28,657 nucleotides of DNA from a virus, in the IMG/VR virus record IMGVR_UViG_3300014711_000006, positions 1 through 28,657 of that record, one strand, 5' to 3'. Shown here one piece after another: positions 581 to 27,708 of this stretch (position 1 is its first letter; the number at the start of each line of letters is the position of its first letter). A program made the position numbers and the translations under genes. Below the pieces are notes generated by a model. It was given only the letters and a program-made list of their open reading frames with translations. It made no database searches and had not been told where the DNA came from.

Positions 581-2490
581 TGGACGAGCACGTCGCTAGT
601 CTGCGCGCCGCGTTCTGCCAGGGGTGGGCGTCGGACTTCATTTCCACGGTGTCGGCCTGGGCGGATAGGTCGAGGCTGCTCGACACCGTATCATCCGCAG
701 AAGCCGGTCAATGGCGCACATCCCGCGTGCCGTACCTCCGCGAGCCGATGGATCGGCTTTCCATCACGGACCCCGTGCAGCGCGTGGTGCTGTGGTTCGG
801 GGCGCAGCTCGGCAAGACGGAGGCGGGCCTAAACTGGGTCGGTTATCAGATCGAGTGTGCACCGGGACCCATGATGGCCGTGCAGCCGACCACGGAACTC
901 GCGCAGTCGTGGTCGAAAGACAGGCTCCAGCACATGCTATCCACGAGTCCCGCCCTACTCGATCGCGTCGGCGAACCAAAGACCCGCGATGCCGGTAACA
1001 CGATCACAGCCAAGGCTTATCCGGGCGGCGTTGTCTACATCAGCGGAGCAAACTCACCGGTCGGCCTGCGGTCGAAGCCGATACGATACCTATTCCTTGA
1101 CGAGATCGACACCTACCCGGGGGACGTGGGTAACGAGGGCGATCCGGTGTCGCTCGCGGAGAAACGGTCATCGACCTTTGGGGCGCGTCGCAAGGTGCTC
1201 CTGACATCGACTTGCACAGTCAAGGGATTCTCGCGCATCGAGCGGGAGTTCCTCGCGTCCGACCAGCGATACTACTACGTGCCATGTCCGCACTGCCAGA
1301 CCATGCAGACGCTTGAATGGAGCGGCGTGAAATGGGCGAAGGACAACCCGCATGGGGCGTGGTACGAATGTTCGGCCTGTGGCGGCCATATCCAGAACTC
1401 AGACAAGACATCGATTCTGGCGGCTGGCGAATGGCGGGCCACGGCGGACGGCGACGGACGCACAACAGGGTATCACCTGTCAGGGCTCTACTCGCCCGTG
1501 GGATGGGTCTCGTGGGGCGACTTGGCAGATGAGTGGATCGCTGCGCAGAAGAACCCGATGCTACTCAAGACCTTCATCAACACCAGACTGGCGCAGCCAT
1601 GGGACGACCGGGCAGGGCAGGGCGTCGAGCCGGGCAGCCTCATGGACCGGCGGGAGGTGTTCGACGTGGAGCTCGACCCCGAGGTCCGGGTGATCACGAT
1701 GGGCGTGGACGTGCAGGACGACCGGCTGGAATGCGAGACGGTGGCATGGGGACCGGGCTATGAGTCCTGGTCGCTGGCGTACACCGTGATTCCGGGTGAC
1801 CCGTCGAACCTCACCGCATCCGGTCCGTGGGCAGACCTCGACCAGGCACGCGACACCACGTGGATGCATCCGACGGTCGGACCGATGCACATCTCGACGG
1901 TGTGCGTGGACACTGGCGGCCACTTCACCGGGAGTGCGTACGAGTACGTGAAGCGCCACACTCGCTCGCGGGTGTTCGGTATCAAGGGCAGGTCGGCGCC
2001 TGCTGGCGGGCAACGCATCCCGATCTGGCCGCGGCGTCCATCGAAGAACAACAAGGGCAAGATCGACCTCTACATCGTCGGCATCGACGCGGCCAAAGAG
2101 GACGTCTACGCGCGACTGCGCCTGATGACGCCTGGCGCTGGATATTGCCACTTCCCCGTCGAACGGGACGCGGATTATTTCGCGCAGCTCACGAGCGAGC
2201 GATTGCAGGTGACGTACTCGAAAGGCCGGGAAGCCCGCGCCTGGGTGAAACCAGACGGTGTCCGCAACGAGGCGCTGGACTGCCGCGTCTACGCCTACGC
2301 CGGGCTCCACGCGTGGTTCTCCTTCGGACGTCGCCTCGACCGCCCGCTGGCCATGCCGACGACCGTCCCGCGTCCGACCGGGACCGCCACATCATCGGTG
2401 ACACCACGACCGATAGCCACCGCCCAACGCCCTGCCGCCGAACCTCGCGCGACCGGAGCGAAGCGCCCATCCTCCTGGTTCCGACGCTGA
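577..2490 (+). CDS. Terminase large subunit, GpA family
   Basis: ATPase-nuclease that cuts and pumps DNA into the prohead. The 637-residue length is typical of the lambda gpA family. Visible motifs: a deviant Walker A GAQLGKTE at residues 75-82, a Walker B YLFLDEID at 171-178, a zinc-knuckle pair C237-x2-C240 and C265-x2-C268 between the ATPase and nuclease halves, and the nuclease motif GVDVQDDRLE near residue 376. The C-terminal 40 residues are Pro/Thr/Arg-rich, as expected for the portal-contacting tail. Starts with tandem ATGs inside the end of the small subunit gene (577 or 580). The stop codon abuts the first copy of a repeated intergenic element. Confidence 0.96.
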   Translation: MMDEHVASLRAAFCQGWASDFISTVSAWADRSRLLDTVSSAEAGQWRTSRVPYLREPMDRLSITDPVQRVVLWFGAQLGKTEAGLNWVGYQIECAPGPMMAVQPTTELAQSWSKDRLQHMLSTSPALLDRVGEPKTRDAGNTITAKAYPGGVVYISGANSPVGLRSKPIRYLFLDEIDTYPGDVGNEGDPVSLAEKRSSTFGARRKVLLTSTCTVKGFSRIEREFLASDQRYYYVPCPHCQTMQTLEWSGVKWAKDNPHGAWYECSACGGHIQNSDKTSILAAGEWRATADGDGRTTGYHLSGLYSPVGWVSWGDLADEWIAAQKNPMLLKTFINTRLAQPWDDRAGQGVEPGSLMDRREVFDVELDPEVRVITMGVDVQDDRLECETVAWGPGYESWSLAYTVIPGDPSNLTASGPWADLDQARDTTWMHPTVGPMHISTVCVDTGGHFTGSAYEYVKRHTRSRVFGIKGRSAPAGGQRIPIWPRRPSKNNKGKIDLYIVGIDAAKEDVYARLRLMTPGAGYCHFPVERDADYFAQLTSERLQVTYSKGREARAWVKPDGVRNEALDCRVYAYAGLHAWFSFGRRLDRPLAMPTTVPRPTGTATSSVTPRPIATAQRPAAEPRATGAKRPSSWFRR

Positions 2491-2548
2491 CCTACGGACG
2501 CGCGATGACGGCGTGATTGCATTCGTTGTCGGACGGAACACACCATCG
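2489..2548 (+). promoter_or_regulatory. Repeated intergenic element, copy 1 (candidate promoter)
   Basis: First of three related elements of about 60 bases. It aligns without gaps to 4291-4350: both begin GACCTACG and both have GGAACACACCATC at the same offset (here 2535-2547), with about 70 percent identity by eye. It fills the space between the terminase stop and the gpW gene, 27 bases before that start. Placement and conservation suggest a promoter or activator site; no textbook -35/-10 pair is obvious. A recombination linker between modules is an alternative. Confidence 0.5.
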
Positions 2549-2574
2549 ACCGCGGGACGTACTCGGAGCCCGCC

Positions 2575-2778
2575 ATGCCAGGATACACGCAGACGCAACT
2601 TGATGAACTTGAGGCGGCTATCGCGGCCGGTGTCCTGACGGTGAAGCACGGCGACAAGCTCGTGACTTACCGATCGCTCGCTGAGATGCTGCGACTCGCC
2701 GACCTGATCCGCCAGGCCCTTGCGGCTCCGTCGTCAAGGCGCCCGCTGTGCGGCTACATCTCACACTCACGAGGCTGA
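2575..2778 (+). CDS. gpW-like head-tail connector protein
   Basis: Small protein (67 residues) that in lambda (gpW) sits on the portal after packaging and is needed to attach the tail. The N-terminal pattern is diagnostic for the family: YTQTQLDELEAAIAAGVL, then KHGDKLVTYRSLAEMLRLADLI, the helix-hairpin-helix fold with a 'TYRSLAEM' motif. The last 15 or so residues (SRRPLCGYISHSRG) look unlike the family and may be a variable tail. A GGAG at about 2565 precedes the ATG. It lies directly before the portal, the usual place. Confidence 0.85.
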   Translation: MPGYTQTQLDELEAAIAAGVLTVKHGDKLVTYRSLAEMLRLADLIRQALAAPSSRRPLCGYISHSRG

Positions 2779-2779
2779 C

Positions 2780-4288
2780 ATGCGACTGTTCGGACTCGAC
2801 ATCAAGCGTGCACGCAAGGCGAAGCCCGCAAAGACCCGCGCCTATGACGGCGCCTCGACTGGCCGCCGCACCGACGGATGGCTGACCACGGGCGCATCCG
2901 GCGCGGCCGAGGTGTCCGCGGGCATCGTGAATCTGCGGACCCGCTCTCGCGACCTAGCCAGGAACAACCCGCACGCGGCCCGCGGCCTGCGCGCCATGGT
3001 GGACAACATCGTGGGAGAGGGAATCCGCCCGCGGTCGCAGACGGGAAACCCGGACCTCGACGCCAGGGTAGACGCCCTCTTTACGGCCTGGTCGCCGTGG
3101 GTCGATGTGGACGGTGAACTGACCTACGACGGTCTGGTCTACCGGGCCGTGCGCGCGTGGCTCGAATCCGGCGACGCATTCGCCCGCAGGCGAACACGCC
3201 GACCTGAAGATGGCCTGCCTGTGCCACTTCAGATCCAACTGCTCGAAGCCGATATGGTCCCATCGGACATGGACGCGGCGACCGCTGACGGCGGGCGGAT
3301 TGTCCAGGGCATCGAGTTCGACCCGATCGGCCGACGCCGTGCGGTGCACTGCTACCGGGTCCACCCGGGCGACACCTACACCACGACCTCGCCACTGACC
3401 ACGATCGGTGAGACGAGCGCGGTGCCGTGGGATTCCATCGCACATCTGTACGACGCGACCTCGGCCCGGCCGGGACAATGCCGCGGTGTGCCGTGGCTCG
3501 CTCCTGTGGTCCGACCGCTGCGCGACCTCGACGACTACTGCGACGCAGAGCGCGTCCGAAAGCGGGCCGAGGCGTGCTACGTGGGCGTCGTCGTCGGTGG
3601 CGATCCGGACCTCGCGCCGGACGAGAACGACGGCATCGCACCAGGACTGACGGATGCGGACGGCAAAGTCATCGAGACCTTCGAGCCTGGCTTGATCGCC
3701 TACGCGCGCGACGGCAAAGACATCCGCTTCAACGCACCAGCGAACGTGAGCGGCTTCCCGGAATACAAGCGCAGCGAGCTGCACACGATCGCCGCGGGCC
3801 TGTCGATGACCTACGAGCTCCTGTCTGGCGACCTGAGCCAGGTGAACTACAGCTCGATCCGCGCGGGCCTCATCGAGTTCCGCCGGATGGTGCGCATCCT
3901 CCGTGCGCAGGTCGTCGAGCCGCTGCTGTGCCAGCGCATCTGGGACTGGTGGATCGACGCAGCGGTCGTGTCCGGCCTGCTGCCGCGCGTGGACGGACGA
4001 AACGCCATCAACTATCGGTGCAAGTGGAGCCAGCCGCGCTTCGAGGCCGTGGACCCGCAGAAGGAAGCTGATGCCACGGTCACCCGCATCCGCGCCGGAC
4101 TGGACACGCTGACCGAGGCACTTGCGGCCGATGGCGAGGACGTCAAGGCCGTGCTGACCGAACGGGCGGACGAACTGCGCCTGTGTGACTCGCTCGGCAT
4201 CGTGCTGGACTCCGACCCGCGCGCTGACATGACTGCGACCATCGAGTCCGAACAACCTGCCGACGACGACGAAGAGACCGTCAACTAG
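2780..4288 (+). CDS. Portal protein, lambda family
   Basis: Forms the dodecameric ring at the packaging vertex through which DNA enters and leaves. 502 residues, normal for lambda-family portals. Recognisable segments: GIVNLRTRSRDLARNNPHA (about residues 54-72), the following RGLRAMVDNIVGEGIRP, a central LLEADMVP, and VNYSSIRAGLIEFRR near residue 356. The ATG at 2780 is chosen because it follows GAGG (2771-2774) and gives the family's short basic N-terminus (MRLFGLDIKR); an earlier in-frame ATG at 2720 would lie inside the gpW gene. The acidic C-terminus (DDDEETVN) is common in this family. Confidence 0.95.
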   Translation: MRLFGLDIKRARKAKPAKTRAYDGASTGRRTDGWLTTGASGAAEVSAGIVNLRTRSRDLARNNPHAARGLRAMVDNIVGEGIRPRSQTGNPDLDARVDALFTAWSPWVDVDGELTYDGLVYRAVRAWLESGDAFARRRTRRPEDGLPVPLQIQLLEADMVPSDMDAATADGGRIVQGIEFDPIGRRRAVHCYRVHPGDTYTTTSPLTTIGETSAVPWDSIAHLYDATSARPGQCRGVPWLAPVVRPLRDLDDYCDAERVRKRAEACYVGVVVGGDPDLAPDENDGIAPGLTDADGKVIETFEPGLIAYARDGKDIRFNAPANVSGFPEYKRSELHTIAAGLSMTYELLSGDLSQVNYSSIRAGLIEFRRMVRILRAQVVEPLLCQRIWDWWIDAAVVSGLLPRVDGRNAINYRCKWSQPRFEAVDPQKEADATVTRIRAGLDTLTEALAADGEDVKAVLTERADELRLCDSLGIVLDSDPRADMTATIESEQPADDDEETVN

Positions 4289-4290
4289 CC

Positions 4291-4350
4291 GACCTACGAA
4301 CATGCCATCACGTCGTGCGTGACCTCGCCTTCGCCCGGAACACACCATCC
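4291..4350 (+). promoter_or_regulatory. Repeated intergenic element, copy 2 (candidate promoter)
   Basis: Second copy of the element at 2489. It shares GACCTACG and CGGAACACACCATC with copy 1, and shares CGTGCGTGAC plus CACACCATCC, separated by exactly 17 bases (GTGCGTGAC 4315-4323, CACACCATCC 4341-4350), with copy 3 at 24673. A 17-base separation is the usual -35/-10 spacing, but neither block matches sigma70 consensus. It ends 15 bases before the protease-capsid start. It overlaps a possible GTG start at 4315, which argues that the GTG is not used. Confidence 0.5.
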
Positions 4351-4365
4351 GTGCAGGAGGTGGAG

Positions 4366-6249
4366 ATGGACCTTCAACGCCGCGCTGCCGACATTCGGCC
4401 TGACACATTCCGGAGTGATTCCAGCGAATCTCCAGCGTCATACGTGGACATCACGTGGACGACCGGCGCCACGGTCCGCCGCCAGCAGTGGGACGGCCAG
4501 CAGTACGACGAGGAACTCATCGTCGCACCCGAGTCGGTCCGCCTCGACCGTCTGAATCATGGCGCGCCATTCCTGCGTGCGCACGACGCCGGGAGCCTCG
4601 ATGCCGTGCTCGGCGTCGTGGTGGACGGTAGCGCCCGCATCGAGGACGGCCTCGGCGTCGCCACGGTCCGCCTGTCCGATTCGCCCGGCGATGCGGAAAT
4701 CGTCCAGAAGATCCGCGCAGGGCTCATTCGCAACATCAGCGTCGGGTATCAGACGCACCGCACAGAGCTGACCGAGCGGTCCGGCCAGGTGCCGCTCGTC
4801 CGCGTCGTGGATTGGGAGCCATTCGAGTTGTCCGCCGTTCCGATTGGAGCGGACGCCGGAGCGGCTTTCCGCGCCCTCGAACCAGTACCAACTCAGGAGG
4901 AACACAGGATGGAAGAGACCAAGATCGTGACGGAGCAGCCCGTCAACCTGGACGAGGTGCGGACGGCTGCGGCCAAGGCCGAGCGGGAACGGATGACCGA
5001 GATCCGCGCTGCCGGACAGAAGCTGCGCATCGAAGATGCACTGATCGACCAGCTCATCAGCGATGGCACCACGCTCGACAAGGCCCGTGCGGCCATGATC
5101 GACGCCGCCGCGAAGCGCGAGCCGGTGACCGAAGCTCGCCCGCGGGTCGAAGTCGGCACGGAAAGCGTCGAGCACCAGGTTCGCGGTATGACCGAGGCCC
5201 TGCTCAACCGCTGCGACAGCCGGAACGAACTGACCGAAGTGGCCCGCCAGTTCCGCGGCCACAGCCTGCTGGACATGGCGCGTGAATCGCTCGAAGCGAA
5301 CGGCGTGCGGACCCGTGGCCGTACGAAGATGGAGATCGCCAGTCTCGCACTGCGTGCCGGTGAGCACGTGACGGCGGACTTCCCGCTGGTCTTGGCGAAC
5401 GTCGCGAACAAGTCGCTGCTGCGAGGCTACACCGAAGCCCCGCGGACGTTCATGCCATTCTGTCGCCAGACCAATCTGAGCGACCTCAAGGACGTGAGCC
5501 GCGTGGCCCTCGGCGAAATGCCCACGATCGCGGACGTGCTCGAAGGCGCTCCCTACGGCAACGTGACCTTCGGCGAGCGGCGCGAGCAGTGGCACCTGTC
5601 GAAGGCCGGCGCCATCTTCGCCATCACGACCGAAGCCCTGATCAACGACGACCTGGATGCCTTCTCGCGTCTGCCCTCGATGTTCGGCGCCTCCTGCGCG
5701 CGCAAGCAGAGCGACGTGGTGTGGTCGATCTTCACCACCAACCCGAACATGGCGGACGGAAATCCGCTGTTCGACCTCGGCACCCACGCGAACGTCGCAG
5801 CCGGAGCCGTCGTGAACCCGCCCGACGCGGCAACCATCGCCGGGATGCAGTCGATCCTCATGAACCAGACCGGCATCGGCGGTGTGGTCGGCGTGGGCGT
5901 CCCTGCCCGCTACATCATCGTCCCAGTGGCTCTGGGATTCCAGGTGCGGCAGTTGCTCTCGACGGGCTATGTCCCGACGAGCGCCGCGAATGCCGTGACG
6001 GACGACCAGCGTCGTCTTGGGATCATCGAGGAGCCGCGTCTGGACGTGGCCGATCCGGTGGCCTGGTACGTGGCCGCCGATCCCTCGCAGATCGACACCA
6101 TCGAATACGGCTTCCTCCAGGGCATGGAAGGTCCGCAGCTCACCCGCGAGGAAGGATTCGACATCGACGCGATGCGGCTCAAGGCCACCCAGTATTTCGG
6201 GGCGAAGGCGATCGACTGGCGCGGGCTGGCCTACAACGCCGGGACCTAG
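4366..6249 (+). CDS. Prohead protease-major capsid fusion
   Basis: One 627-residue reading frame carries both the maturation protease and the capsid protein. Residues 1-165 look like the prohead protease family (PF04586-type): a His motif LRAHDAGSLDAVLG (H73), a serine motif IRNISVGY (S125) and WEPFELSAVPIGAD (E151/E154). Residues about 182-330 are Lys/Glu/Arg/Ala-rich and helical, like a delta or scaffold region. The rest resembles HK97-fold capsids, e.g. GAIFAITTEALINDDL and YGFLQGMEGPQLTREEGFDIDAM. The ATG at 4366 follows AGGAGG at 4355-4360 with ideal spacing. A second AGGAGG precedes an in-frame ATG at 4909 (residue 182), so capsid may also be made separately. The catalytic residues are inferred from motif position. 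Confidence 0.92.
   Translation: MDLQRRAADIRPDTFRSDSSESPASYVDITWTTGATVRRQQWDGQQYDEELIVAPESVRLDRLNHGAPFLRAHDAGSLDAVLGVVVDGSARIEDGLGVATVRLSDSPGDAEIVQKIRAGLIRNISVGYQTHRTELTERSGQVPLVRVVDWEPFELSAVPIGADAGAAFRALEPVPTQEEHRMEETKIVTEQPVNLDEVRTAAAKAERERMTEIRAAGQKLRIEDALIDQLISDGTTLDKARAAMIDAAAKREPVTEARPRVEVGTESVEHQVRGMTEALLNRCDSRNELTEVARQFRGHSLLDMARESLEANGVRTRGRTKMEIASLALRAGEHVTADFPLVLANVANKSLLRGYTEAPRTFMPFCRQTNLSDLKDVSRVALGEMPTIADVLEGAPYGNVTFGERREQWHLSKAGAIFAITTEALINDDLDAFSRLPSMFGASCARKQSDVVWSIFTTNPNMADGNPLFDLGTHANVAAGAVVNPPDAATIAGMQSILMNQTGIGGVVGVGVPARYIIVPVALGFQVRQLLSTGYVPTSAANAVTDDQRRLGIIEEPRLDVADPVAWYVAADPSQIDTIEYGFLQGMEGPQLTREEGFDIDAMRLKATQYFGAKAIDWRGLAYNAGT
4895..4911 (+). promoter_or_regulatory. 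Internal ribosome binding site and start codon
   Basis: AGGAGG at 4895-4900, 8 bases, then ATG at 4909, in frame within the protease-capsid gene and exactly at the junction between the protease domain and the helical delta/capsid part. Use of it would give a 446-residue scaffold-capsid protein in excess over the fusion. Strength and position suggest it is real, comparable in logic to the nested C/Nu3 genes of lambda; this is inference. Confidence 0.6.
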
Positions 6250-6263
6250 TGACGGGATGTGTG

Positions 6264-6293
6264 GCGGGTGGCCCGGGAGGCCGGGCCACCCGC
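6264..6293 (+). terminator. 13-bp perfect hairpin after capsid gene
   Basis: GCGGGTGGCCCGG (6264-6276), loop GAGG, then the exact reverse complement CCGGGCCACCCGC (6281-6293). It lies 15 bases after the capsid stop and 11 bases before the next gene's AAGGAGG. There is no T-run after it, so it is not a classical intrinsic terminator; partial termination or a 3' stabilising structure for the abundant capsid message are the likely roles. Confidence 0.5.
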
Positions 6294-6316
6294 TCTGACA
6301 ACTGAAGGAGGGACAC

Positions 6317-7348
6317 ATGGCGACGAATAAGCTCACTGACGGGGACGTGGTCATCCTGACCGCGCCTGCGAATGTGGATTCCGGGGATCTGGTCGAAGTC
6401 GGGCACTTCATCGGCGTGGCCGTGACCGACGCGGACAACGGCGATCCTGTGCCGGTCTGCCTGTCCGGCGTGTTCGAGCTGCCGAAGGCGGCCGGTGTCG
6501 GCATCAGCGCGGGCGACCGCTGCTACAACAGCGCGGGCGACGTGACGAATGTCGAATCCGGCGAGGCGTTCGGCATCTGCGTCGAGACCGTCGCCGGTGG
6601 CGGGGCGACGGTGAAGGTGCGCCTCGGCGTGCCGAACGAGGCGCTCGACGCGACCACGGCGAACCTGGCCAGCCTGGCTCTGAACAAGGGCGCCAGCCTG
6701 ATCGGTATCAACGACGCAGCGACGCAATACACCGCGACGACGGTCGAAGCGGCTTTGGCCGAGGTCAAGGTCATCGCGGACGACGCGGCTGTGGCTGCCA
6801 CTCTGGCCAGCACGAACAACGCCGAGGGCGCGAGCCTGATCGGTATCGAGGATTCGAGCAACGACATCACCGCGACCACGGTCGAAGGGGCCTTGGCTGA
6901 ATTGGCCGCGCCGCCACGAGTGAAGGTGTCCAAGACCACGATCACGCACTTCGCCGATGCAGCAGCGCATGACGCGACGTTCACACTGCCCACGAAGGCG
7001 GCCGTGCTGGACGCCTGGTATGACCTGCGGGTCGCTGCTGGCGCTGGCGTGACCCTGAGTTTTGGCGTCAACGGGACCCCTGGCGGGTATATGTCTGTCG
7101 CTCCGATGGACGCTGCGATCGGGCTCAAAACGCTCGACGCCACACTGGATGGCACGAACAACTGGTTCGTGGCATCCGTCCGCGGCGCCCTGATCAAGCG
7201 CGAGGTCGCTGGTGCCAACGCCGACGACCGCGGGCTCTTCGCCAAGGTGATCGACGTGTCCTCGGGTGGCAAGAAGCTGGCCTACCAGGCCAGCGCGCCC
7301 GACGCCACGGTCGAGGTCGATGTCTACGTCGCTTACGTCGAGATGTGA
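6317..7348 (+). CDS. DUF2190-like capsid decoration protein with extra C-terminal domain
   Basis: The first 110 or so residues match the DUF2190 pattern (capsid cement or decoration proteins): KLTDGDVVILTAPANVDSG, VEVGHFIGVAVTDADNGD and SAGDRCYNSAGDVTNV with GxxxGICVETVAGGGATVKVRL. Family members are usually only about 110 residues; this one has 343. The added part holds two 46-residue tandem repeats (GASLIGI...TATTVEAALAE) and a C-terminal beta-rich domain of about 150 residues (from PPRVKVSKTTITHF) not recognised. The repeat motif is common in phage surface proteins. An AAGGAGG at 6304-6310 precedes the ATG. Likely a virion surface protein expressed at high level after the capsid. Confidence 0.72.
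   Translation: MATNKLTDGDVVILTAPANVDSGDLVEVGHFIGVAVTDADNGDPVPVCLSGVFELPKAAGVGISAGDRCYNSAGDVTNVESGEAFGICVETVAGGGATVKVRLGVPNEALDATTANLASLALNKGASLIGINDAATQYTATTVEAALAEVKVIADDAAVAATLASTNNAEGASLIGIEDSSNDITATTVEGALAELAAPPRVKVSKTTITHFADAAAHDATFTLPTKAAVLDAWYDLRVAAGAGVTLSFGVNGTPGGYMSVAPMDAAIGLKTLDATLDGTNNWFVASVRGALIKREVAGANADDRGLFAKVIDVSSGGKKLAYQASAPDATVEVDVYVAYVEM
6665..6904 (+). repeat. Tandem 46-codon repeat in decoration protein
   Basis: Two consecutive copies, 6665-6802 and 6803-6904 (second copy shortened), each beginning with codons for LAS and containing GASLIGI, then TATTVE-x-ALAE. The period is 138 bases. The sequence between conserved blocks has diverged, so the duplication is old. Similar units occur as linkers in phage fibre proteins. 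Confidence 0.8.
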
Positions 7349-7361
7349 GTGAGGTGATCCG

Positions 7362-7679
7362 GTGTCCTGGGGTGTAATCGCAGACTTGGCCACGAAAGCA
7401 GTCCGTGAGACTTACGGGGTGTCTGTGACCTATACCCCAGGCACCGGGGCTCCCGTCACCCTGCGTGCCGTATTCGACGCGCTCTACGAGGTCGTGCAAC
7501 TCCTAGATGGCGTACCTGTGACGACGCAGCGCCCGGTGCTCGACGTCCGCCTAGCGGACCTTGGCACCGTGACGCCAGCCATCGGTCACACGCTGGCCAT
7601 CGGGACGGACGGCTACGAGGTCACCGACGTGCAGCTCGACGGGCGCGGGTCCGCGAAGCTGTTTCTGGTGACGCTATGA
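7362..7679 (+). CDS. Head-tail joining protein (gpFII-like)
   Basis: 105 residues with the pattern of phage head-tail attachment proteins (PF05354-type): VSVTYTPGTGAPVTLRAVFD near residue 20, a central RPVLDVRLADLG, and a terminal DGYEVTDVQLDGRGSAKLFL. In lambda, gpFII sits at the head-tail interface after gpW. The GTG start at 7362 follows GAGGTGATC (7351-7359), an extended match to the 16S rRNA tail, so GTG is the credible start. The stop overlaps the next gene by 4 bases. Confidence 0.72.
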   Translation: MSWGVIADLATKAVRETYGVSVTYTPGTGAPVTLRAVFDALYEVVQLLDGVPVTTQRPVLDVRLADLGTVTPAIGHTLAIGTDGYEVTDVQLDGRGSAKLFLVTL

Positions 7680-8200
7680 CACTCACACCAAAGAACATCC
7701 GCCAGGACATCGTGACCCGCCTGACGGGCGAGACGTCCTGCGGCGCGCGCGTCTATGACTCTCGGATGCCGCCGTGGCAGCCGGGCGAGATCCCGGCGAT
7801 CACGGTCTATTCCGGCGGTCACACAGATCAGTCCATCAGCCTTGGAGCGCCCGTCTACCGGCGCACCGAGCAGCTCGTCATCGAGCTTATCCACGAAGGC
7901 GCAACTGACGCGGCTCTCGCGGCGTCCCTCGATGACGACGAGAAGCTGGTCAAGGAAGTGCTGCTGATGGCGCCGGACTGGGTGAGCCAGTTCGAAAAGG
8001 TAGACCGCATCAGCGTGCAGCGCGGCCGGGACATCGAGTCCGATCACCGTCGGATGTTGTCCCGCATCACGTTCGAGATCGAGTACGTCGCAGCCTTCGA
8101 GCCGGTCATCGCAGATGATTTCGACACCGTGCACCTGACGGTGGACGAGCCCGCCCTGACGACCGAAGTCGTCGCGACTTACACCCTGACGGCTCCATAG
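7676..8200 (+). CDS. Tail terminator-like protein
   Basis: 174 residues. The arrangement IRQDIVTRLTG...CGARVYDSRMPPWQPGEIPAITVYS, followed by RRTEQLVIELIHEGA and a long helix rich in acidic residues, resembles tail terminator or minor tail protein U proteins, which cap the tail tube and contact the head. It sits between the head-tail joining gene and the gp38-like and sheath genes, the expected place. Starts in an ATGA overlap with the upstream gene, implying coupled translation. Assignment is from fold-like pattern and position. Confidence 0.6.
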   Translation: MTLTPKNIRQDIVTRLTGETSCGARVYDSRMPPWQPGEIPAITVYSGGHTDQSISLGAPVYRRTEQLVIELIHEGATDAALAASLDDDEKLVKEVLLMAPDWVSQFEKVDRISVQRGRDIESDHRRMLSRITFEIEYVAAFEPVIADDFDTVHLTVDEPALTTEVVATYTLTAP

Positions 8201-8209
8201 GAGGTCGAG

Positions 8210-8482: not shown

Positions 8483-8493
8483 CGGAGGGAACC

Positions 8494-10002: not shown

Positions 10003-10012
10003 GAGGTGACCC

Positions 10013-10378: not shown

Positions 10379-10650
10379 TGCAACTCCCCATCGGCATTCA
10401 ACTCAAGACCCCGATCAAGGCGTATGGCGACAGCGTGACCTCGCTGACCTTCGCTCGCCGTCCAAACCTCGGTGACCTCCGGGCCACCGATGGCCGCGGC
10501 GAGATGGAGCGGGTCGTCATCCTCGTGTCGCGCCTGGCGGGGATTCCCGAGTCCAGCGCCGAGCAGATCGATGTCGGCGACCTCGAGGCCGTGTCGAAGG
10601 TGATCGAGGGTTTTTTCGGCGGTCCTGGCCAGGAAACTGGTCCGAGTTAG
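10378..10650 (+). CDS. Tail assembly chaperone, short form (gp41-like)
   Basis: 90 residues, gp41-like: LPIGIQLKTPIKAYGDSVTSLTFARRPNLGDLRA at the start, then EQIDVGDLEAVSKVIEGFF. Sits between tube and tape measure, where dsDNA tail phages encode chaperones that coat the tape measure during assembly. The reading frame passes through a slip site at 10608-10617 and then stops at 10648-10650. The short form is the expected majority product. The ATG overlaps the tube stop codon. Confidence 0.85.
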   Translation: MQLPIGIQLKTPIKAYGDSVTSLTFARRPNLGDLRATDGRGEMERVVILVSRLAGIPESSAEQIDVGDLEAVSKVIEGFFGGPGQETGPS

Positions 10651-10772
10651 CCGCCGATCTCGCGTATCACCTGCACTGGCCGCCGTCCGAGATATGGGCG
10701 CTGGAACTTGACGACCTTGAATGGTGGGTCGTCCAGTTGAACGACGCCGCCAAGCGCGCAAGCGGAGACTGA
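10378..10772 (+). CDS. Tail assembly chaperone, -1 frameshift form (gp41-GpE fusion)
   Basis: If ribosomes slip back one base at TTTTTTC (10611-10617), translation continues in the -1 frame to TGA at 10770-10772, adding 51 residues for a 131-residue product. The added part has no start codon of its own, yet reads as a GpE-like protein: WSELAADLAYHLHWPPSEIW, then LELDDLEWWVVQLNDAA, with the HWPPSEI motif typical of P2 GpE-family proteins. P2 E/E' uses a similar TTTTTTG slip. The fusion ends one base before the tape measure ATG, the standard arrangement. Confidence 0.85.
10608..10617 (+). other. Programmed -1 ribosomal frameshift site
   Basis: GGGTTTTTTC. In the zero frame it reads GAG GGT TTT TTC, giving two overlapping canonical X_XXY_YYZ heptamers: G_GGT_TTT and T_TTT_TTC. 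A run of six T is conspicuous in such a GC-rich gene. A pairing-capable GC-rich stretch follows (GGCGGTCC near 10618). Confidence 0.85.
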
Positions 10773-10773
10773 C

Positions 10774-15080: not shown

Positions 15081-15081
15081 G

Positions 15082-17757: not shown

Positions 17758-17772
17758 TCTGGAGGTAACGAG

Positions 17773-18045
17773 ATGTCAGTAAGACTCGGGTGCGTGCTGG
17801 TGGACATGCCTCGGCTCTGGGATAGGTCGGCGGATAAAGCCCCGCAGAAGATCATTGCTGTCACTGTGGCGGAAGGAACCCAGGCGAAGCTCAGGACCCT
17901 CGACGCCGCGATGCCAACGATGGTCTACGCGATGGGCGATACGGTGTTCGTCCGCGAGGATGCCGGAGATCAGTTCATCCTCGACGATCGACCCGTGGCT
18001 GCCGTGGACGCGAACGACGTGATCTACCACAGGCCTAAGAAGTAG
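17773..18045 (+). CDS. Hypothetical protein in fibre island
   Basis: 90 residues, not recognised. It is compact and mixed alpha/beta in appearance: MSVRLGCVLVDMPRLWD, then IIAVTVAEGTQAKLRTLDAAMPTMVYAMGDTVFVREDAGDQFI, ending in lysines. No signal peptide or membrane segment. GGAGGT at 17761-17766 precedes the ATG and AGGAGGT follows the stop to serve the next gene, so it is a genuine operon member between two fibre-like genes. A small structural or adaptor protein is the simplest guess. Confidence 0.7.
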   Translation: MSVRLGCVLVDMPRLWDRSADKAPQKIIAVTVAEGTQAKLRTLDAAMPTMVYAMGDTVFVREDAGDQFILDDRPVAAVDANDVIYHRPKK

Positions 18046-18057
18046 GAGGTTTCGACC

Positions 18058-18588
18058 ATGGCACCGATATTCACGTACACCGGCCAACTCGGCACCGCCG
18101 GGATGAAGTGCGGGAACTGGAAGCTGTTCTATTCGGACGGGTCTGGGGTGTGGACCGAGTTGGGCCTGGATACATCCGACACGCGGAAGTACCTATCGTG
18201 CCTTAGCACGGGCGGTGTGGCTGCGGCGCCGACGTGGGAAGATGTCGCCGCTGGGGTGACCTATGCGTACGAGGTGAACGACGACGCGGCGACGGTGACG
18301 CTCGATTTGGAGGTGGCGTCGCACCATGAGGTCGTGATGGACAGCGGGGACGCGAATCGGAACCTCGCGGTGAGCAACGCCTCCGTGGGTCAGATGTTCA
18401 CGATCACCCTGGTGCAGGACGGGACCGGGAGTCGGACGGTGACGTGGTGGTCGGGGATCAAGTGGCCGGCGGACGTAGTGCCGACGCTGACGACGACGGG
18501 CGACAGGAAGGACTGTTTCGCGTTCAAGGTCATCGCGAGCGGTGCCTACGAGGGTTTCATCCTCGGGATGAACTTGGCGAAGCCGTAG
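18058..18588 (+). CDS. Fibre-associated beta-rich virion protein
   Basis: 176 residues. The C-terminal two thirds follow a pattern seen in many phage virion proteins: NDDAATVTLDLEVASHHEVVM, SVGQMFTITLVQDGTGSRTVTWWSGIKWPADVVPTLTTTG, DCFAFKVIASGAYEGFILGMNL. This looks like a beta-sandwich with conserved Thr-Val-Thr-Trp and Lys-Trp-Pro turns. The N-terminal 60 residues differ (FTYTGQLGTAGMKCGNWKLF) and may be an attachment part. AGGAGGT at 18044-18050 precedes the ATG. Sits between the long fibre and the beta-helix-like adhesin. Exact role unknown. Confidence 0.72.
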   Translation: MAPIFTYTGQLGTAGMKCGNWKLFYSDGSGVWTELGLDTSDTRKYLSCLSTGGVAAAPTWEDVAAGVTYAYEVNDDAATVTLDLEVASHHEVVMDSGDANRNLAVSNASVGQMFTITLVQDGTGSRTVTWWSGIKWPADVVPTLTTTGDRKDCFAFKVIASGAYEGFILGMNLAKP

Positions 18589-18597
18589 GGGTGGGGC

Positions 18598-20208
18598 ATG
18601 GCGACGTACTACTGGAGGGGTGGGACTGCGGACTGGGGGACGTCGGCCTCGGCGAATTGGACGACGAACGCGGACGGGTCCTCGGACGGGTCCACGCATC
18701 TTCCAACGGCGACAGACGATGTCGTGTTCAATAGCTACAGTACCGGAGTGTGTACGGTCGCGGCGGCGGCGACATGCAAGACGCTGGATCTATCCTCGTC
18801 GGGAGGGACGCTGGCGGGCAGTTCGACGTTGACGATTGCAGGGAACGTTACGCTCGGGGGGACGTTGACGTACACCGGGCGACTGACTGTTACGGACACC
18901 TGCGCCTGGACTAGCAACGGGGTGGCGTTCGGTGGTGAGGTGTACCCCAACTGTTCCGGCAAGGCAGTCACGATGACTGACGACGCCGTGATCGACCGGC
19001 TGACGATTTATCGCGGCACGTTCGATATCAACGGCTCCAATCTGGATACCCGGACAACCTGGATCGAGAACCACAGTACCGCGATTCTGACCGGTGCGGA
19101 TGCGGGGAACATTTGGACGATCCGTGGAGATACGTCGAAACAGCCCTTTGGCAAATACACAGCGAAGCAACGGATCAGAGTGGTGGCTGGATGCACGATC
19201 TACAATATAACTGGCTGCCATTACGAGATTGACCCGGGTTCGGGGAAGCAAGTTACATTCGCGGGGCCGGGTGGGCCGGGGTCTGCATACGATTGCGTGG
19301 TCAAGAGCGGACGGTTGGAATGGGGCTTGGCGTACACAAAGTACGTCCGGCATCTGCTTGGGCAGGGAGGCGTCGTCAGTGGCGAAGGGGTTCCTTACGT
19401 GTACGGCGACATCGACAACGGTGGCGTGACGTGGACGATTAGCGGCGAGGTGCATCTGTACGGGGCGAGCGGTACAACATCGACGATCAAAAGCAATGGT
19501 AAGTCGTGGGCGTGCGCGTTCTTCGTTAGAGGTGCGGGCAAGACCTGGACACTTGCAGACGATTGCACTACGACGAACTGGATGATTTTGGAGAATGGCA
19601 CGCTAGATTTGAATGGGCACGATATGAGTGCGTTGAGGTTCGATACGCGGACCGGCACAAAAACTTTGAAGCTTGGCGCGGGGACGCTGCGGTTGACGGA
19701 CCCGAACACGGGAAACAAGTGGAACAACGTGCAGCCCGCTAACACGACGTGGGAGGCCAGTAGCGGGCGTGTGTTGTTGTCGGGTGGTGGGGCCGGTAAG
19801 ACCTCTACTATCGTGGGTGGCGGTGCAACGTACCCGTGGCGGTTCGAGGTGGAGGAGGCCGCGCACCTGACCATCACCGGGACGAATACGTTCGGCGCCC
19901 TGTGGATTCGCGGTCCCTACACGAAAACGGTGAAGCTCCCTGACACGGTGACGACGACGGTCGGGCAGTTCCACGCCTGGGGTGGTCCGGGGACGAAGAT
20001 CACGCTGCGGAACACCAGCGCGGCGGCGGCGGTCTTGAGCCAAGCGACGGGGACGGTGAATTGCAACTACCTCACCCTGTCGGACGTGACGCCAGCGGGC
20101 GGTGCGATCTGGTACGCGGGGTCTGGGTCGAACATCTCGGCAGGGTCGGCGGGGTGGAAGCTGTATGATATGTCGAGCCCTGCTGCGGCGCTGGTGGGAG
20201 GTGTGTGA
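18598..20208 (+). CDS. Adhesin-like repetitive beta protein (tailspike candidate)
   Basis: 536 residues. It starts with a WRGGTADWGTSASANWTT motif familiar from surface and phage adhesins, followed by many short strands rich in Thr, Gly and Asn (TLTIAGNVTLGGTLTYTG, ILENGTLDLNGHDMSALRF, TLKLGAGTLRLTDPNTGNKW) that look like turns of a right-handed beta-helix. No enzymatic motif is recognised. Ends with MSSPAAALVGGV. The ATG has only a weak GGGGTGGGG before it. One base of its stop codon is shared with the next ATG. Receptor binding is inferred from architecture and neighbours. Confidence 0.65.
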   Translation: MATYYWRGGTADWGTSASANWTTNADGSSDGSTHLPTATDDVVFNSYSTGVCTVAAAATCKTLDLSSSGGTLAGSSTLTIAGNVTLGGTLTYTGRLTVTDTCAWTSNGVAFGGEVYPNCSGKAVTMTDDAVIDRLTIYRGTFDINGSNLDTRTTWIENHSTAILTGADAGNIWTIRGDTSKQPFGKYTAKQRIRVVAGCTIYNITGCHYEIDPGSGKQVTFAGPGGPGSAYDCVVKSGRLEWGLAYTKYVRHLLGQGGVVSGEGVPYVYGDIDNGGVTWTISGEVHLYGASGTTSTIKSNGKSWACAFFVRGAGKTWTLADDCTTTNWMILENGTLDLNGHDMSALRFDTRTGTKTLKLGAGTLRLTDPNTGNKWNNVQPANTTWEASSGRVLLSGGGAGKTSTIVGGGATYPWRFEVEEAAHLTITGTNTFGALWIRGPYTKTVKLPDTVTTTVGQFHAWGGPGTKITLRNTSAAAAVLSQATGTVNCNYLTLSDVTPAGGAIWYAGSGSNISAGSAGWKLYDMSSPAAALVGGV

Positions 20209-20372
20209 TGGGCGTGCTGGTGATAGACGGGGCGGCTGCGTGTTTGACGCCAGTGGCGACCAAGACTCTGGATTGCATGACCACATCAATTGCCACGACG
20301 CTTGCGCCGAGCGCCGCTGCGGGCCCGGTCCGCGCGTACTTCACCGGCTGGACGCGCAACACGAGCTCGTAG
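20208..20372 (+). CDS. Small protein, 54 residues, in fibre island
   Basis: Not recognised. It starts in a TGATG overlap with the adhesin-like gene, has GGGAGGTG at 20196-20203 in front, and ends exactly where the AGGAGGTGAC of the gp46 gene begins. Sequence: short hydrophobic start (MGVLVIDGAAACLTPV), Thr-rich middle, and RAYFTGWTRNTSS end. Good ribosome binding site and tight packing are the reasons to call it real. No membrane segment is convincing. Confidence 0.62.
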   Translation: MGVLVIDGAAACLTPVATKTLDCMTTSIATTLAPSAAAGPVRAYFTGWTRNTSS

Positions 20373-20382
20373 GAGGTGACAC

Positions 20383-20793
20383 GTGGCTCTGTGGGCCGAA
20401 CTGTTTGACCTGGTGCCTGATGCACCATCGGACCCGATGACGAGTCTGCGTGCTGTGGTCATGATCGCCCTGTTCTCGGACCGGCAAGCACGGGATGATG
20501 ACGCACTGCCAGATGGCATCAACGACCGATCCGGCTGGTGGGCGGACCCGGACTTCGGCTCGCGGCTCTGGCTCCTGCGACGCGAGACCCTGACGGATGC
20601 CGTGGTGATCCGCGCGAAGGAGCTGGCGACCGAGGCGTTGCAGGTCCTCGTCGATGACGGCATCTGCCAGTCATTCGCGGTCGAGACTGCCCGCAGTGGG
20701 GACATCCTCGGGATGACTGTGACCCTCTACCGCGACGGGCAACCGCCCGCAATCGTGCAGTTCGATGACCTCTGGAGCGAAATAGGAGGCTGA
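20383..20793 (+). CDS. Baseplate wedge protein, Mu gp46-like (gpW/gp25 fold)
   Basis: 136 residues of the phage gp46 family, counterpart of P2 gpW and T4 gp25, which link sheath to baseplate. Diagnostic segment: GINDRSGWWADPDFGSRLWLLRRETLTD at about residues 45-72. Then a helix (VIRAKELATEALQVLVDDGIC) and beta strands MTVTLYRDG. The GTG start at 20383 follows AGGAGGTGAC at 20371-20380. Confidence 0.9.
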   Translation: MALWAELFDLVPDAPSDPMTSLRAVVMIALFSDRQARDDDALPDGINDRSGWWADPDFGSRLWLLRRETLTDAVVIRAKELATEALQVLVDDGICQSFAVETARSGDILGMTVTLYRDGQPPAIVQFDDLWSEIGG

Positions 20794-20795
20794 CC

Positions 20796-21902
20796 ATGGC
20801 GACCACCACGGGATTCGTCGTCCCGACCCTGACGACGCTGATCGAGCGTATTGCGAGCGACATCAACACGCGCATCCCTGGGCAGGATAGTCGCATCCGG
20901 TACTCGCTGCTGTGGGTGCTCGCGCGCGTGTTCGCGGGCGCGGTCTGGACCGTCTACGCCTTCCAGTCGTGGATCATGGGGCAGCTCATGCTGGACACCA
21001 CAACGGAACTCACCAGGCGCCATGCGACCATCTGGGGAGTGACGCCGAACCCGCCTACGAAGGCGACCGGCAACGTGCGCGTGACCGGTACGGCTGCATC
21101 GGTTATCCCGGCCGGGACCGTGATGCAGACTGTTGCTGGCGTCCAGTACGAGACCGATGTGATCGTGAACTTCCCGACTCCGACCGCGCAGCAGACGGTC
21201 TCGGTGACCGCCCTAGAGGCTGGCGACGATGGCAACGCCGCAGCATCCACGCTGCTCACCTTCGTGTCGCCTCCCGCGGGCGTGGTCGCGACGGCGACCG
21301 TGGATACCGGACTGACCGGCGGGACGGACGTCGAGTCTGACGAGGGCCTGCGCGATCGCGTGGTGGACTTCGTGCGGGACCGTCCGCACGGCGGGTGTAC
21401 GCAAGATTACGAGATGTGGGCGATGGAGGTCGCAGGTGTCGAGCGCGTCTGGGTAGTCGGCGAGACGAACTCGCTCGGCCTGACCGTGCCCGCGGGCGAC
21501 GTCTGGGTCTACTTCGCCACCACCGGCGTTGGCTCTGCTGTCATCCCGGCGGCGCCGCTGATCGCCCAGGTCCAGGCGTACCTCGACGACGATTCGCGGC
21601 GGCCCGTGACGATGGCGGTGAGGGCAAAGGCACCGACACCGCACGTGACGGACATCACCATTGACCTCGTACCGAACACCTCGACTGTCCAGGCACAGGT
21701 CGAGGATGAACTGGAGGCGCTGTTCCTGTCCACGGCCACCCTCGGGGGAACGATCTACAACAGCCAGCTTCACGAGGCCGTGTCGCGCGCGGCGGGTGAG
21801 ACCTCGCACTCCTTCACGGTTGTCGATGGCGGCGCCGGGACCAATGACGTGGTGTGCTCTGGGGACGAACTGGCCATCCTCGGGACGGTGACATTCGTAT
21901 GA
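20796..21902 (+). CDS. Baseplate wedge protein J, Mu gp47-like
   Basis: 368 residues, baseplate J family. Pattern: TTLIERIASDINTRIPGQDSRIRYSLLWVLARVFAGAVWTVYAFQSWI, then TELTRRHATIWGVTPNPPTKATGNVRVTG and IPAGTVMQTVAGVQYETD; C-terminal half has ESDEGLRDRVVDFVRDRPHGGCTQDYEMWAMEVAGVERVWV. It forms the wedge that opens when the baseplate triggers. AGGAGGCTGACC before the ATG; 4-base overlap with gp48. Confidence 0.94.
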   Translation: MATTTGFVVPTLTTLIERIASDINTRIPGQDSRIRYSLLWVLARVFAGAVWTVYAFQSWIMGQLMLDTTTELTRRHATIWGVTPNPPTKATGNVRVTGTAASVIPAGTVMQTVAGVQYETDVIVNFPTPTAQQTVSVTALEAGDDGNAAASTLLTFVSPPAGVVATATVDTGLTGGTDVESDEGLRDRVVDFVRDRPHGGCTQDYEMWAMEVAGVERVWVVGETNSLGLTVPAGDVWVYFATTGVGSAVIPAAPLIAQVQAYLDDDSRRPVTMAVRAKAPTPHVTDITIDLVPNTSTVQAQVEDELEALFLSTATLGGTIYNSQLHEAVSRAAGETSHSFTVVDGGAGTNDVVCSGDELAILGTVTFV

Positions 21903-22486
21903 TTGGACGCAGCACATGGCTCGACTACACGGGACTCCTGCACCGGCTTCTGCCTCGCGGCTGGCTGTGGGTGCGGGACGGGCTGACGAAATTCGGCGCG
22001 CTGCTCGACGCCCTCGGTGACGAGCTCGCGCGTCTGCACAACAGGGCGCTGGACATGATCGAGGAGTGCGACCCACAGACGGCGACCGAGACGCTGGATG
22101 CCTGGGAGCGCATCTGCGGACTACCGATTCCCGTGGGGACCGCGCCTGTGACGGACGCGGACCGGCGCACGGCAATCGTGGCTCACCTACGTACACGTGG
22201 CGGATGCAGTCCTGACTACTTCGAGGGTGTCGCCGCGGAGCACGGGATCACGGTCACCGTCGAGGACCGCCTGCACGACGCGGTGCTGCATCCCGACTAC
22301 TCGCCCGCGTGGGCACACTACTGGATCGCCGACTGCGATGCGTCTGTTGTGAGCCGTCTGCGGTGCGGGGACCGGTGCGGGAATCCGCTCGTCCACTACT
22401 CGGACCCCGATGGCCTTGTGCTGTGCTACCTGTTCGAACGCTACAAGCCAGCGCACACGAAGTGCATCTACAACTACGAAGGATAG
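21899..22486 (+). CDS. Baseplate protein, Mu gp48-like (DUF2313)
   Basis: 195 residues. YTGLLHRLLPRGWLWVRDG, ELARLHNRALDMIEECDPQTATETLDAWERICGLP, and DADRRTAIVAHLRTRGGCSPDYFEGVAAEHGITVTVED are the family pattern; it corresponds to P2 gpI, which anchors fibres to the wedge. The C-terminal 50 residues contain five cysteines. The ATG at 21899 in an ATGA overlap with gp47 is preferred over an earlier in-frame ATG at 21854 lying inside gp47. Confidence 0.9.
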   Translation: MIGRSTWLDYTGLLHRLLPRGWLWVRDGLTKFGALLDALGDELARLHNRALDMIEECDPQTATETLDAWERICGLPIPVGTAPVTDADRRTAIVAHLRTRGGCSPDYFEGVAAEHGITVTVEDRLHDAVLHPDYSPAWAHYWIADCDASVVSRLRCGDRCGNPLVHYSDPDGLVLCYLFERYKPAHTKCIYNYEG

Positions 22487-22498
22487 GAGGCTCGAACC

Positions 22499-23950
22499 AT
22501 GCAACGCATCACCCATCCATCTGCCGTCGCCGCCGAGCCGGTACTTGTCGAGGCTGGCGTTACCGGGTACTGGGACGATCAGACGCCGGGCACTGAAACG
22601 GTCATCACAGCTCGCTGGCTGAACCGCTTGCAGGAGGAAATCTGCAACGTCATCACCGGCAACGGCGGGCTTACGCTGGACGGGACCAGCGACACGCAAC
22701 TGTCTACCGCGCTAGGCTTCGGGATTGGTCGGACGACGGACAGTATCTCCGCACTGATCAACACGCCTTGCGACAAGGGCGTGTTCGTCTCGCAGCACTG
22801 CGGCATCGTGGCCGCGGCCTCCTACGTGGGATGTCTGGCCTCGGTGGACTGCGACCTCGCGACGGTCATCTACTCTGCGACCGTGGCTGCGGACGACTGC
22901 GACATGAGCGCCACGGTGCAGCGGTCCGCCGTCATGGCCTCGCGCGACTGTCTGCTGGACAACTTCGGGACGACGGACTGCTCGGCCATCCTCGCTTGTG
23001 ACGGCGTGTGGATCGGGAACAGCGCGGACGGCCTGATGTGCGCCGCGCTCGGGTGTCAGGACGTTACCGTGGACGGCACGAACAACGTGGCGATCGCGTC
23101 CACGTGTCTCATCCCGTCGAAGGTCGCAGGTACGCAGTCGGTCATCATCGCAAGCAAGGACTGCCTGACCACCTCGGGCGAGATGTACCAGATGGTCCTC
23201 GGGTCCGAGGGATGCACGGCATCGGCTGACTCGGCCATCGTCATCGGGTCCGCGGGGTCGTTCGCATCGGGGAACGCCTCGACCATCATGGCATCGAGGT
23301 GTGCGGAACTGCATCACACATTCTCTGTGGGCGGTGGGTACGACGGCGGGGCGGCGATCACCGAGACGGACCACGACCAGAACCTCTCGTGGCGTATCGA
23401 CTCGGACGGCGGAAACGTGACGATCGACGGCAACTTCGTGGACACCGGCGTCGACTACGCGGAGTTTTTCGAGAACGCCGAGGAAGGCGTCATCCCTGTT
23501 GGATCGATCGTGTCCCGTGTGGGGCGCAAGGTTCGCGCCGCAGTGCCCGGTGACCGCATCCTCGGGGTGGTGTCCGCACAGCCCGCCGTCTGTGGTGGTG
23601 GGGCGGGTCTGCACTGGGCAGGCAAGTACGAGCGCGACCTGTTCGGCGGATACATCTACGAGCAGGACGCGAACGGCCAGATGACCCGCAAGGTGGCTGC
23701 CGACTACGATCGCTCTCGGCCCTACATCGACCGCGCGGCCCGTCCCGAGGAGTGGACCTGCGTGGGGCTGCTCGGCCAGCTCCGGGTCCGTATCGATGAG
23801 ACCGTGACCAGCGAGACCGCCTACATCGAGCCGGGCGTCGATGGCGTCGGGACGGCCACGGACAGCGGTACTCGCTGTGAGGTCATGGACATCGAGACAC
23901 CCTACAGTGCGGAGCGCGGATACGGCGTGGCGCTGTGTCTGGTCCGGTAG
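22499..23950 (+). CDS. Tail fibre with Peptidase_G2-type self-cleaving C-terminus
   Basis: 483 residues. The N-terminal 75 residues (GYWDDQTPGTETVITARWLNRLQEEICNVI) look like a baseplate-attaching fibre start. Residues about 90-270 form cysteine-rich repeats of 10-20 residues, each with short hydrophobic strands (DDCDMSATVQRSAVMASRDC), and then SAIVIGSAGSFASGN, as in YadA-like left-handed rolls. From residue 319 (DYAEFFE), a Peptidase_G2-like domain follows: IPVGSIVSRVGRKVR, DRILGVVSAQPAV, WAGKYERDLFGGYIYE. In phage phi29 gp12 such domains act as intramolecular chaperones that cut themselves off. AGGAGGCTCGAACC precedes the ATG. Host recognition is inferred. Confidence 0.83.
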   Translation: MQRITHPSAVAAEPVLVEAGVTGYWDDQTPGTETVITARWLNRLQEEICNVITGNGGLTLDGTSDTQLSTALGFGIGRTTDSISALINTPCDKGVFVSQHCGIVAAASYVGCLASVDCDLATVIYSATVAADDCDMSATVQRSAVMASRDCLLDNFGTTDCSAILACDGVWIGNSADGLMCAALGCQDVTVDGTNNVAIASTCLIPSKVAGTQSVIIASKDCLTTSGEMYQMVLGSEGCTASADSAIVIGSAGSFASGNASTIMASRCAELHHTFSVGGGYDGGAAITETDHDQNLSWRIDSDGGNVTIDGNFVDTGVDYAEFFENAEEGVIPVGSIVSRVGRKVRAAVPGDRILGVVSAQPAVCGGGAGLHWAGKYERDLFGGYIYEQDANGQMTRKVAADYDRSRPYIDRAARPEEWTCVGLLGQLRVRIDETVTSETAYIEPGVDGVGTATDSGTRCEVMDIETPYSAERGYGVALCLVR

Positions 23951-24613
23951 TCAGCGGGAGGTCCGAAGCACCTCATCGATAGCGCGCAGGGCGTTGTCCG
24001 CGAACTCCTTGTCGCAGACCGCAAGGATCTGTTTCTCGAATTCCCATCGCGGCTTGATCTGCGCCTTGTCCGCGAACACGTAGACGACTTCCATCGGTTC
24101 CCGCGGCAACACCGGTCCTGTCCGGCCGTCGCGCACGCGCTTTCGCGGCTCTGCTGCGCCCGTCTTGTGGCCGAGGAACCGCTTTCCCGATGCGAACTTG
24201 CCGACGAAATACGAGCGTGCCGACTTCTTCGCGTTGATCAGGCTTTTGGGCCACTTCCCCGCGGTTGCAATGCCGCGGTTGTCATCACCTCGGATGACAT
24301 CAGTCGGGATGCCCATCGCCTTGTTCTTCGGCTCCTTCGTTCCGCCCGCTTCCTGCAAGACCATGAACGGGTCGATCGAACCGACCTCGGCGGACTGGTT
24401 CGCCTTCGTGGCCGACTTGATCCGCATCCCCTGTTCTAGCCAGGTCGTTCGGATGGTGAAGTCGTCGGGCAGGTGGCCCACGAGCGCCATCTTGCAGTCC
24501 TGGGCCGTCAGCGTCAACGCCCGCGCCATGGCGAATGGGATCTGCTTCTGCATCGCGAACAGCGCCCGCTCGAATATCCGGGCGTCGATTCTGACCGAGA
24601 TGTCTGGCATCAT
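23951..24613 (-). CDS. Putative GpZ-like virion protein, inverted
   Basis: 220 residues, opposite to all surrounding structural genes. The N-terminal half has a pattern seen in phage minor tail or neck proteins of the GpZ kind: MQKQIPFAMARALTLTAQD, TIRTTWLEQGMRIKSATKAN, AEVGSIDPFMVLQEAGG. It ends with a basic helical segment (WEFEKQILAVCDKEFADNALRAIDEVL). The tandem ATG at 24613/24610 follows AGGAGGTG. Its stop codon abuts the fibre stop codon (23948-23953) with no terminator between. A weak -10-like CATACT (24637-24632) and TTGCGC (24660-24655), 17 bases apart, could drive it. Function uncertain; a moron or stray connector gene. Confidence 0.6.
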   Translation of the reverse strand: MMPDISVRIDARIFERALFAMQKQIPFAMARALTLTAQDCKMALVGHLPDDFTIRTTWLEQGMRIKSATKANQSAEVGSIDPFMVLQEAGGTKEPKNKAMGIPTDVIRGDDNRGIATAGKWPKSLINAKKSARSYFVGKFASGKRFLGHKTGAAEPRKRVRDGRTGPVLPREPMEVVYVFADKAQIKPRWEFEKQILAVCDKEFADNALRAIDEVLRTSR

Positions 24614-24672
24614 GGCACACCTCCTGCCCGGAGTATGTATCGCGGCCACTGTCGGCGCAATCACGGCGCGGC

Positions 24673-24732
24673 AGCCAACAAACCCACCTCGACGCCGTGC
24701 GTGACTCCAGGCGCCCTCGTAGCACACCATCC
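24673..24732 (+). promoter_or_regulatory. Repeated intergenic element, copy 3 (candidate promoter)
   Basis: Shares with copy 2 the blocks CCGTGCGTGAC-like (GTGCGTGAC at 24697-24705) and CACACCATCC (24723-24732) with the same 17-base separation; the GACCTACG block is degraded. It lies in the divergent gap before the amidase gene and ends 25 bases before its ATG, with CGGAGGT at 24747-24753 as ribosome binding site. Suggests a separate lysis-module transcript. Confidence 0.5.
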
Positions 24733-24757
24733 CTATCGGGACAGGTCGGAGGTCCGC

Positions 24758-27515: not shown

Positions 27516-27548
27516 TTTGCTCGCCTCCTGCCTCTCGGCATTCGACTA

Positions 27549-27589: not shown

Positions 27590-27595
27590 AGCCTC

Positions 27596-27624: not shown

Positions 27625-27676
27625 GGATTTTTTTTGCGCCATGGAAAAAATTTTGGACGCGGTTTGCACCTTCGCT

Positions 27677-27699: not shown

Positions 27700-27708
27700 T
27701 CCGGTGAT

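Follow-up and report, generated by a model that had tools for sequence, protein, structure and literature searches.

The window analysed here, i.e. the whole IMG/VR record of 28,657 bases with a G+C content of 64.5%, is probably a fragment of a phage genome. Its genes are those of the late region of a phage with a contractile tail: small and large terminase, gpW, portal and protease-capsid fusion, followed by head decoration, closure, sheath, tube, tape measure, baseplate and fibres. The right part harbors a leftward minor tail gene, an amidase and then small leftward genes up to the right end. The features relevant here are:

2489-2548, + strand: copy 1 of a repeated element, 43/60 identical to copy 2; putative late promoter ahead of gpW and portal
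4291-4350, + strand: copy 2, 43/60 identical to copy 1 and 38/60 to copy 3; putative late promoter of the protease-capsid gene
24673-24732, + strand: copy 3, 38/60 identical to copy 2 and 33/60 to copy 1; putative late promoter of the amidase gene
2508-2515 (copy 1), 4310-4317 and 24692-24699, + strand: upstream block ACG-N-CGTG, invariant save for the central N; candidate activator site
2539-2547 (copy 1), 4341-4349 and 24723-24731, + strand: CACACCATC block with the candidate -10 CACCAT, three exact occurrences
2575-2778, + strand: gpW-like head-tail adaptor gene (PHROG 2545, E 1.3e-18), first gene 3' of copy 1
2777-4288, + strand, start codon approximate: portal gene (PHROG 21, E 4.3e-94), between copies 1 and 2
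4366-6249, + strand: protease-capsid fusion gene (PHROG 4523, E 3e-183), first gene 3' of copy 2, with an AGGAGG Shine-Dalgarno ahead of it at 4356
23951-24613, - strand: leftward minor tail gene (PHROG 1924, E 3e-25), divergent from copy 3
24758-25387, + strand: amidase (endolysin) gene (Pfam Amidase_2, E 2.9e-17), first gene 3' of copy 3

Two further coding features can be mentioned. At 10608-10773 a GGGTTTTTTC run lies in the phrog_166 tail gene and another frame stays open as far as 10773, immediately ahead of the tape measure gene, which makes production of a tail chaperone by programmed frameshift probable. A 54-residue ORF at 20208-20372 starts with MGVLVIDGA and the amidase with MGVILIDGA, possibly a duplicated fragment.

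Non-coding DNA makes up 2.9% of the window, a percentage that depends on our own gene set, derived from ORFs and families, and only 1.2% of 60-base placements in the window are as non-coding as the three copies. There are four interior + strand gaps of at least 60 bases (2491-2574, 4289-4365, 6250-6316 and 24614-24757), and the element fills three of them; 6250-6316 holds instead a hairpin of high stability that follows the capsid gene. This hairpin, at 6263-6300 in the capsid/decoration gap, has a perfect 14-base-pair G+C stem, a folding energy of -38.1 kcal/mol (z -5.05) and no T run; a smaller one at the equivalent place of the relative IMGVR_UViG_3300001596_000051 (8173-8193 of locus L240) is no better than shuffles. 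The remaining long non-coding stretch inside the window (27516-27708) is that of the leftward genes and includes the consensus sigma-70 site described below. A preliminary description had placed the copies at module junctions and never inside operons: all three are indeed intergenic, but copies 1 and 2 lie within the head operon, at terminase/gpW and portal/capsid, respectively. The first bases of copy 1 overlap the TGA that ends the large terminase gene, and copy 3 sits in a divergent gap in which the amidase has no co-directional upstream neighbour. All copies are on the + strand and face the next gene, whose start codon follows 16-27 bases after the end of the element.

The three 60-mers align in a single ungapped register, with no indels and 30 invariant columns despite 28-45% divergence. 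The left end has GACCTACG and the right end CGGAACACACCATC in both copy 1 and copy 2, while copies 2 and 3 share CGTGCGTGAC and, 17 bases further on, CACACCATCC; the coordinates and shared strings given in the preliminary description are correct, and its 17-base gap is exact for copies 2 and 3, but copy 1 lacks GTGAC and carries TTGCAT in that register, with the alignment still kept. The invariant pattern reads, from left to right, CC-AC--AC, ACG-N-CGTG--TG and CACACCATC; exact matches to the last of these occur three times in the window, all within the copies. When profiles were built leaving one copy out, the omitted copy ranked first over both strands of the whole window in all three cases (34.4, 41.7 and 24.9 bits for copies 1, 2 and 3 vs 11.1, 11.8 and 12.3 for the runners-up). 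The scores of copies 1 vs 2 and 2 vs 3 were reached in 0/600 simulated gaps of the same length each; the pair 1 vs 3 is not significant by itself (33/600) and holds solely via the common register. The profile scan yielded no fourth copy in the window, in agreement with the count of exactly three first reported.

Concerning core promoter signals, the best joint sigma-70 register combines the -35 hexamers TTGCAT, GTGACC and GTGACT with a spacer of 18 and the -10 CACCAT, and is not significant alone (P = 0.11). A start site after CACCAT would leave copy 2 with a leader of only about 10 bases, which counts against a promoter reading. No sigma-70 consensus promoter is present in the + strand late region of the window, whereas the small leftward genes do have one. 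TTGACA-N17-GATACT at 27624-27596 (- strand), facing those genes, is the sole consensus sigma-70 promoter of the window and overlaps GATCGACCAGATCGAT, a possible operator. Two other readings of the element were rejected: an ECF-sigma reading of GGAAC, which is absent from copy 3, and a shared peptide read through the element, whose frames differ between copies. The element matches no Rfam family.

Comparison with relatives places these gaps in context. In relatives the terminase/gpW gap, examined in 11 cases, mostly does not exceed 5 bases, and the portal/capsid gap, examined in 96, is mostly 5-32 bases long; hence, most relatives close both head junctions and the window has extra non-coding DNA exactly there. 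Junction 1 was compared with junction 2 in each of 90 sequences having both, and the paired similarity exceeds the cross-pair null (maximum 17) only in the window (28) and in the two contigs of one relative (23). Conservation in related phages, on which the first reading had been made to depend, was thus found for the arrangement, in one relative among the 90, but not for the sequence of the element, which was not found elsewhere in what was searched. Scanning relatives and control loci (2.3 Mb) with the profile gave no homologous copy and no fourth copy, the best other full 60-base match reaching 18.1 bits vs 18.8 for the reversed-profile control; with the 40-base core the best other match (20.4) lies in L035, a locus fetched for holding GTGAC-N17-CACACCATC. 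That pattern has more than 100 matches in IMG/VR, which look like chance and lie mostly in coding sequence, and with stricter patterns there were no matches, or two within coding sequence; absence elsewhere is provisional, as the IMG/VR searches may omit records very near that of the window. Blastn with copies 2 and 3 against phages, and with copy 2 against plasmids, returned nothing relevant, and the contig start ahead of the small terminase (1-25) holds no element. The survey also brought up IMGVR_UViG_3300038379_000627 (L137), classed as viral, with the following features:

2432-3652 and 3997-5084: Cas12f-like ORF and CRISPR-like repeats

The ORF, of 406 residues and beside the terminase gene, matches Cas12f models (E 6e-11), and the CRISPR-like array has 16 repeats of about 37 bases spaced by 56-74 bases, so that a phage-borne type V-F system is possible.

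The relative that keeps the arrangement, IMGVR_UViG_3300001596_000051, shares 44% identity with the window in the sheath, 40% in the terminase, 37% in the portal and 33% in the capsid. It carries a near-invariant 20-mer, GACCGCAGGAATGCGACCGG, in exactly three copies, co-oriented like the element of the window and located at its three positions, namely terminase/gpW, portal/capsid and the gap upstream of the leftward tail gene. Both head junctions hold GACCGCAGGAATGCGACCGG and the third copy, with one change, lies 17.4 kb downstream; no further occurrence was found in 39.9 kb at up to three mismatches. This third copy adjoins the upstream side of a leftward gene related to the leftward tail gene of the window (30% identity, E 1e-29) and is followed by a tRNA-Met and by rightward genes that run up to an amidase. 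The -10-like hexamers TAGGCT, TAGGCT and TATCGT follow the 20-mers at 17, 16 and 17 bases, respectively. TANNNT at that distance in all three has a joint chance of about 3e-8 from random points, a figure that overstates the case, since the form of the hexamer was picked with the sequence already in view. At the two head junctions the hexamer lies 7-8 bases before the ATG, which suggests that the gpW and capsid messages of the relative may be near-leaderless. The 20-mer is unrelated in sequence to the element of the window, whose profile does not detect it. It should be noted that the relative was first met via a repeat search and not in a planned test, the systematic junction comparison having been made afterwards, and that it is one phage, represented by two contigs whose junction sequences are the same, from which the comparative support comes. 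The relative is probably temperate, since it has an integrase gene. A leftward ORF on its - strand (L254, 1-1815) holds an eCIS_core domain (PF13699, E 5.6e-9), a domain that usually accompanies contractile injection systems.

Taken as promoters the copies can be read with high confidence, above all because the relative has its own three-copy element at the same sites with -10-like hexamers, and the best explanation, only slightly less secure, is that the three form one class of coordinated late promoters. The promoter class of the preliminary description is therefore well supported by placement, fixed spacing and the three-copy element of the relative, while the start sites are putative. In the proposed mechanism, rightward transcripts would start just upstream of the gpW-portal, protease-capsid and amidase/lysis genes. 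Host RNA polymerase would bind the poor -10 and -35 hexamers at their spacer of 18, and a phage protein made earlier would bind ACG-N-CGTG, centred near -42, and CC-AC--AC, near -58. Once bound, this protein would recruit the polymerase, so that the three units would be switched on jointly, with separate transcripts for the capsid and the lysis genes. That a phage activator is needed, as first proposed, seems rather likely, poor core hexamers with strongly conserved upstream blocks having the look of activator-dependent phage late promoters such as those of Mu C and P2 Ogr.

Searches for the activator covered the window, which is a partial genome. They gave no Mor/C family protein, no sigma factor and only a sub-threshold match to the Ogr profile (14 bits at 26818 vs a cut-off of 26.3); the search for a single-subunit RNA polymerase found no match in the window nor in any control genome, and is uninformative. 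Several leftward ORFs carry CxxC zinc-ribbon motifs, one of them, of 40 residues on the - strand, matching a general zinc-ribbon family and the others weakly; as activators these - strand ORFs were discarded, none matching a known late activator. In the same part of the window, an identical 20-base translation start, AAGGAGGAGAAATGAGAATC, occurs on the - strand at 28044-28063 and 28519-28538 ahead of two small ORFs, and a degenerate six-base repeat (CCGGAC-like) extends over 28546-28657, reaching the contig end.

Among alternatives to promoters, sites at which a phage protein binds DNA for a different purpose (as repressor or stoperator, or in packaging or replication) would agree with the conserved upstream blocks and the short palindrome ACG-N-CGT, which look like a protein site; the one-way orientation toward genes and the fixed-distance -10-like partner in the relative make this improbable. 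A role at the mRNA level, as a 5' leader or translation-initiation element comparable to the start-associated sequences of Cluster K mycobacteriophages, would explain why the element is always a short way upstream of a start codon. Its distance to the Shine-Dalgarno varies, however (about 6, 16 and 17 bases, by reading the sequence), no Shine-Dalgarno lies inside it, and its folding is not better than that of shuffled sequence, with a weak consensus fold; such a role is more improbable still. The second proposal of the preliminary description, linker or boundary sequences promoting modular exchange by homologous recombination between phages, fits the location at gene junctions and the lack of the extra DNA in most relatives. 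It is disfavoured, and very unlikely, because the longest identical stretch between copies, which are 55-72% identical, is 14 bases, and RecA- or Red-type recombination needs about 30 bases of identity (PMC2327257); the constant orientation and, in the relative, the fixed distance to a -10-like partner also speak against it. Least probable of all are MITE-like copies without function, left by a small insertion that was mobile or duplicated, since, although the gaps look inserted relative to most relatives, there are no terminal inverted repeats (by eye) and no further copies, the orientation is single, conservation is block-like, and the same sites in the relative hold unrelated sequence.

Returning to late promoters, the more interesting point may be that their position appears to be kept and their sequence not, as read from one relative in two contigs. 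We tentatively propose, without considering it the likelier outcome, that the three late promoters hold fixed places in the gene order, with the recognition sequence and presumably the activator being replaced as a set between relatives; if true, this would amount to a coordinated turnover of a whole phage regulon. Relatives with kept positions and differing sequences would offer a clean setting in which to follow how an activator and all its targets change together. The three copies would also define a late-gene regulon that can be tested, in contractile-tailed phages of a group whose transcription programme we did not find described, and suggest that internal promoters in a tight head operon may be readable from raw sequence by comparing equivalent junctions.

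As regards known systems, the SAS/ESAS of Cluster K mycobacteriophages are likewise asymmetric, repeated and located in unusually long gaps ahead of start codons (PMC3203893). A SAS includes AGGAG and is separated from the start codon by 3-7 bases, and there are 11-19 copies, only in the non-structural half (PMC3203893), whereas the window has three copies, 16-27 bases from the start codon, ahead of head and lysis genes; by reading the sequence, no GGGATAGGAGCCC-like sequence stands 3-7 bases before the start codon in the copies of the window. The element of the relative has the same three junctions, orientation and number of copies and a similar spacing, of 16-17 bases, to the -10-like block, but an unrelated sequence, copies nearly identical to each other and better -10 hexamers. 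The late promoters of phage Mu (lys, I, P and mom) are activated by protein C, lie ahead of lysis and head units, and combine non-consensus -10 and -35 hexamers with binding of the activator at -35 or further upstream (PMC4461284). As in Mu, the window would have a set of like promoters preceding lysis and head genes, with candidate core hexamers that are poor and a conserved block upstream of them; the differences are that the (partial) window has no Mor/C protein and that gene order and sequences differ. In P2, another contractile-tailed phage, the co-regulated late promoters (PP, PO, PV and PF) are activated by Ogr, again from a site upstream of a poor promoter (PMC3931495), but its TGT-N12-ACA dyad is found in 0/3 copies of the window, the five occurrences in the window lying elsewhere. 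The resemblance of the element to the Mu and P2 classes would be one in mode of working, without implying membership in either. The kind of arrangement is already known; its sequences are new.
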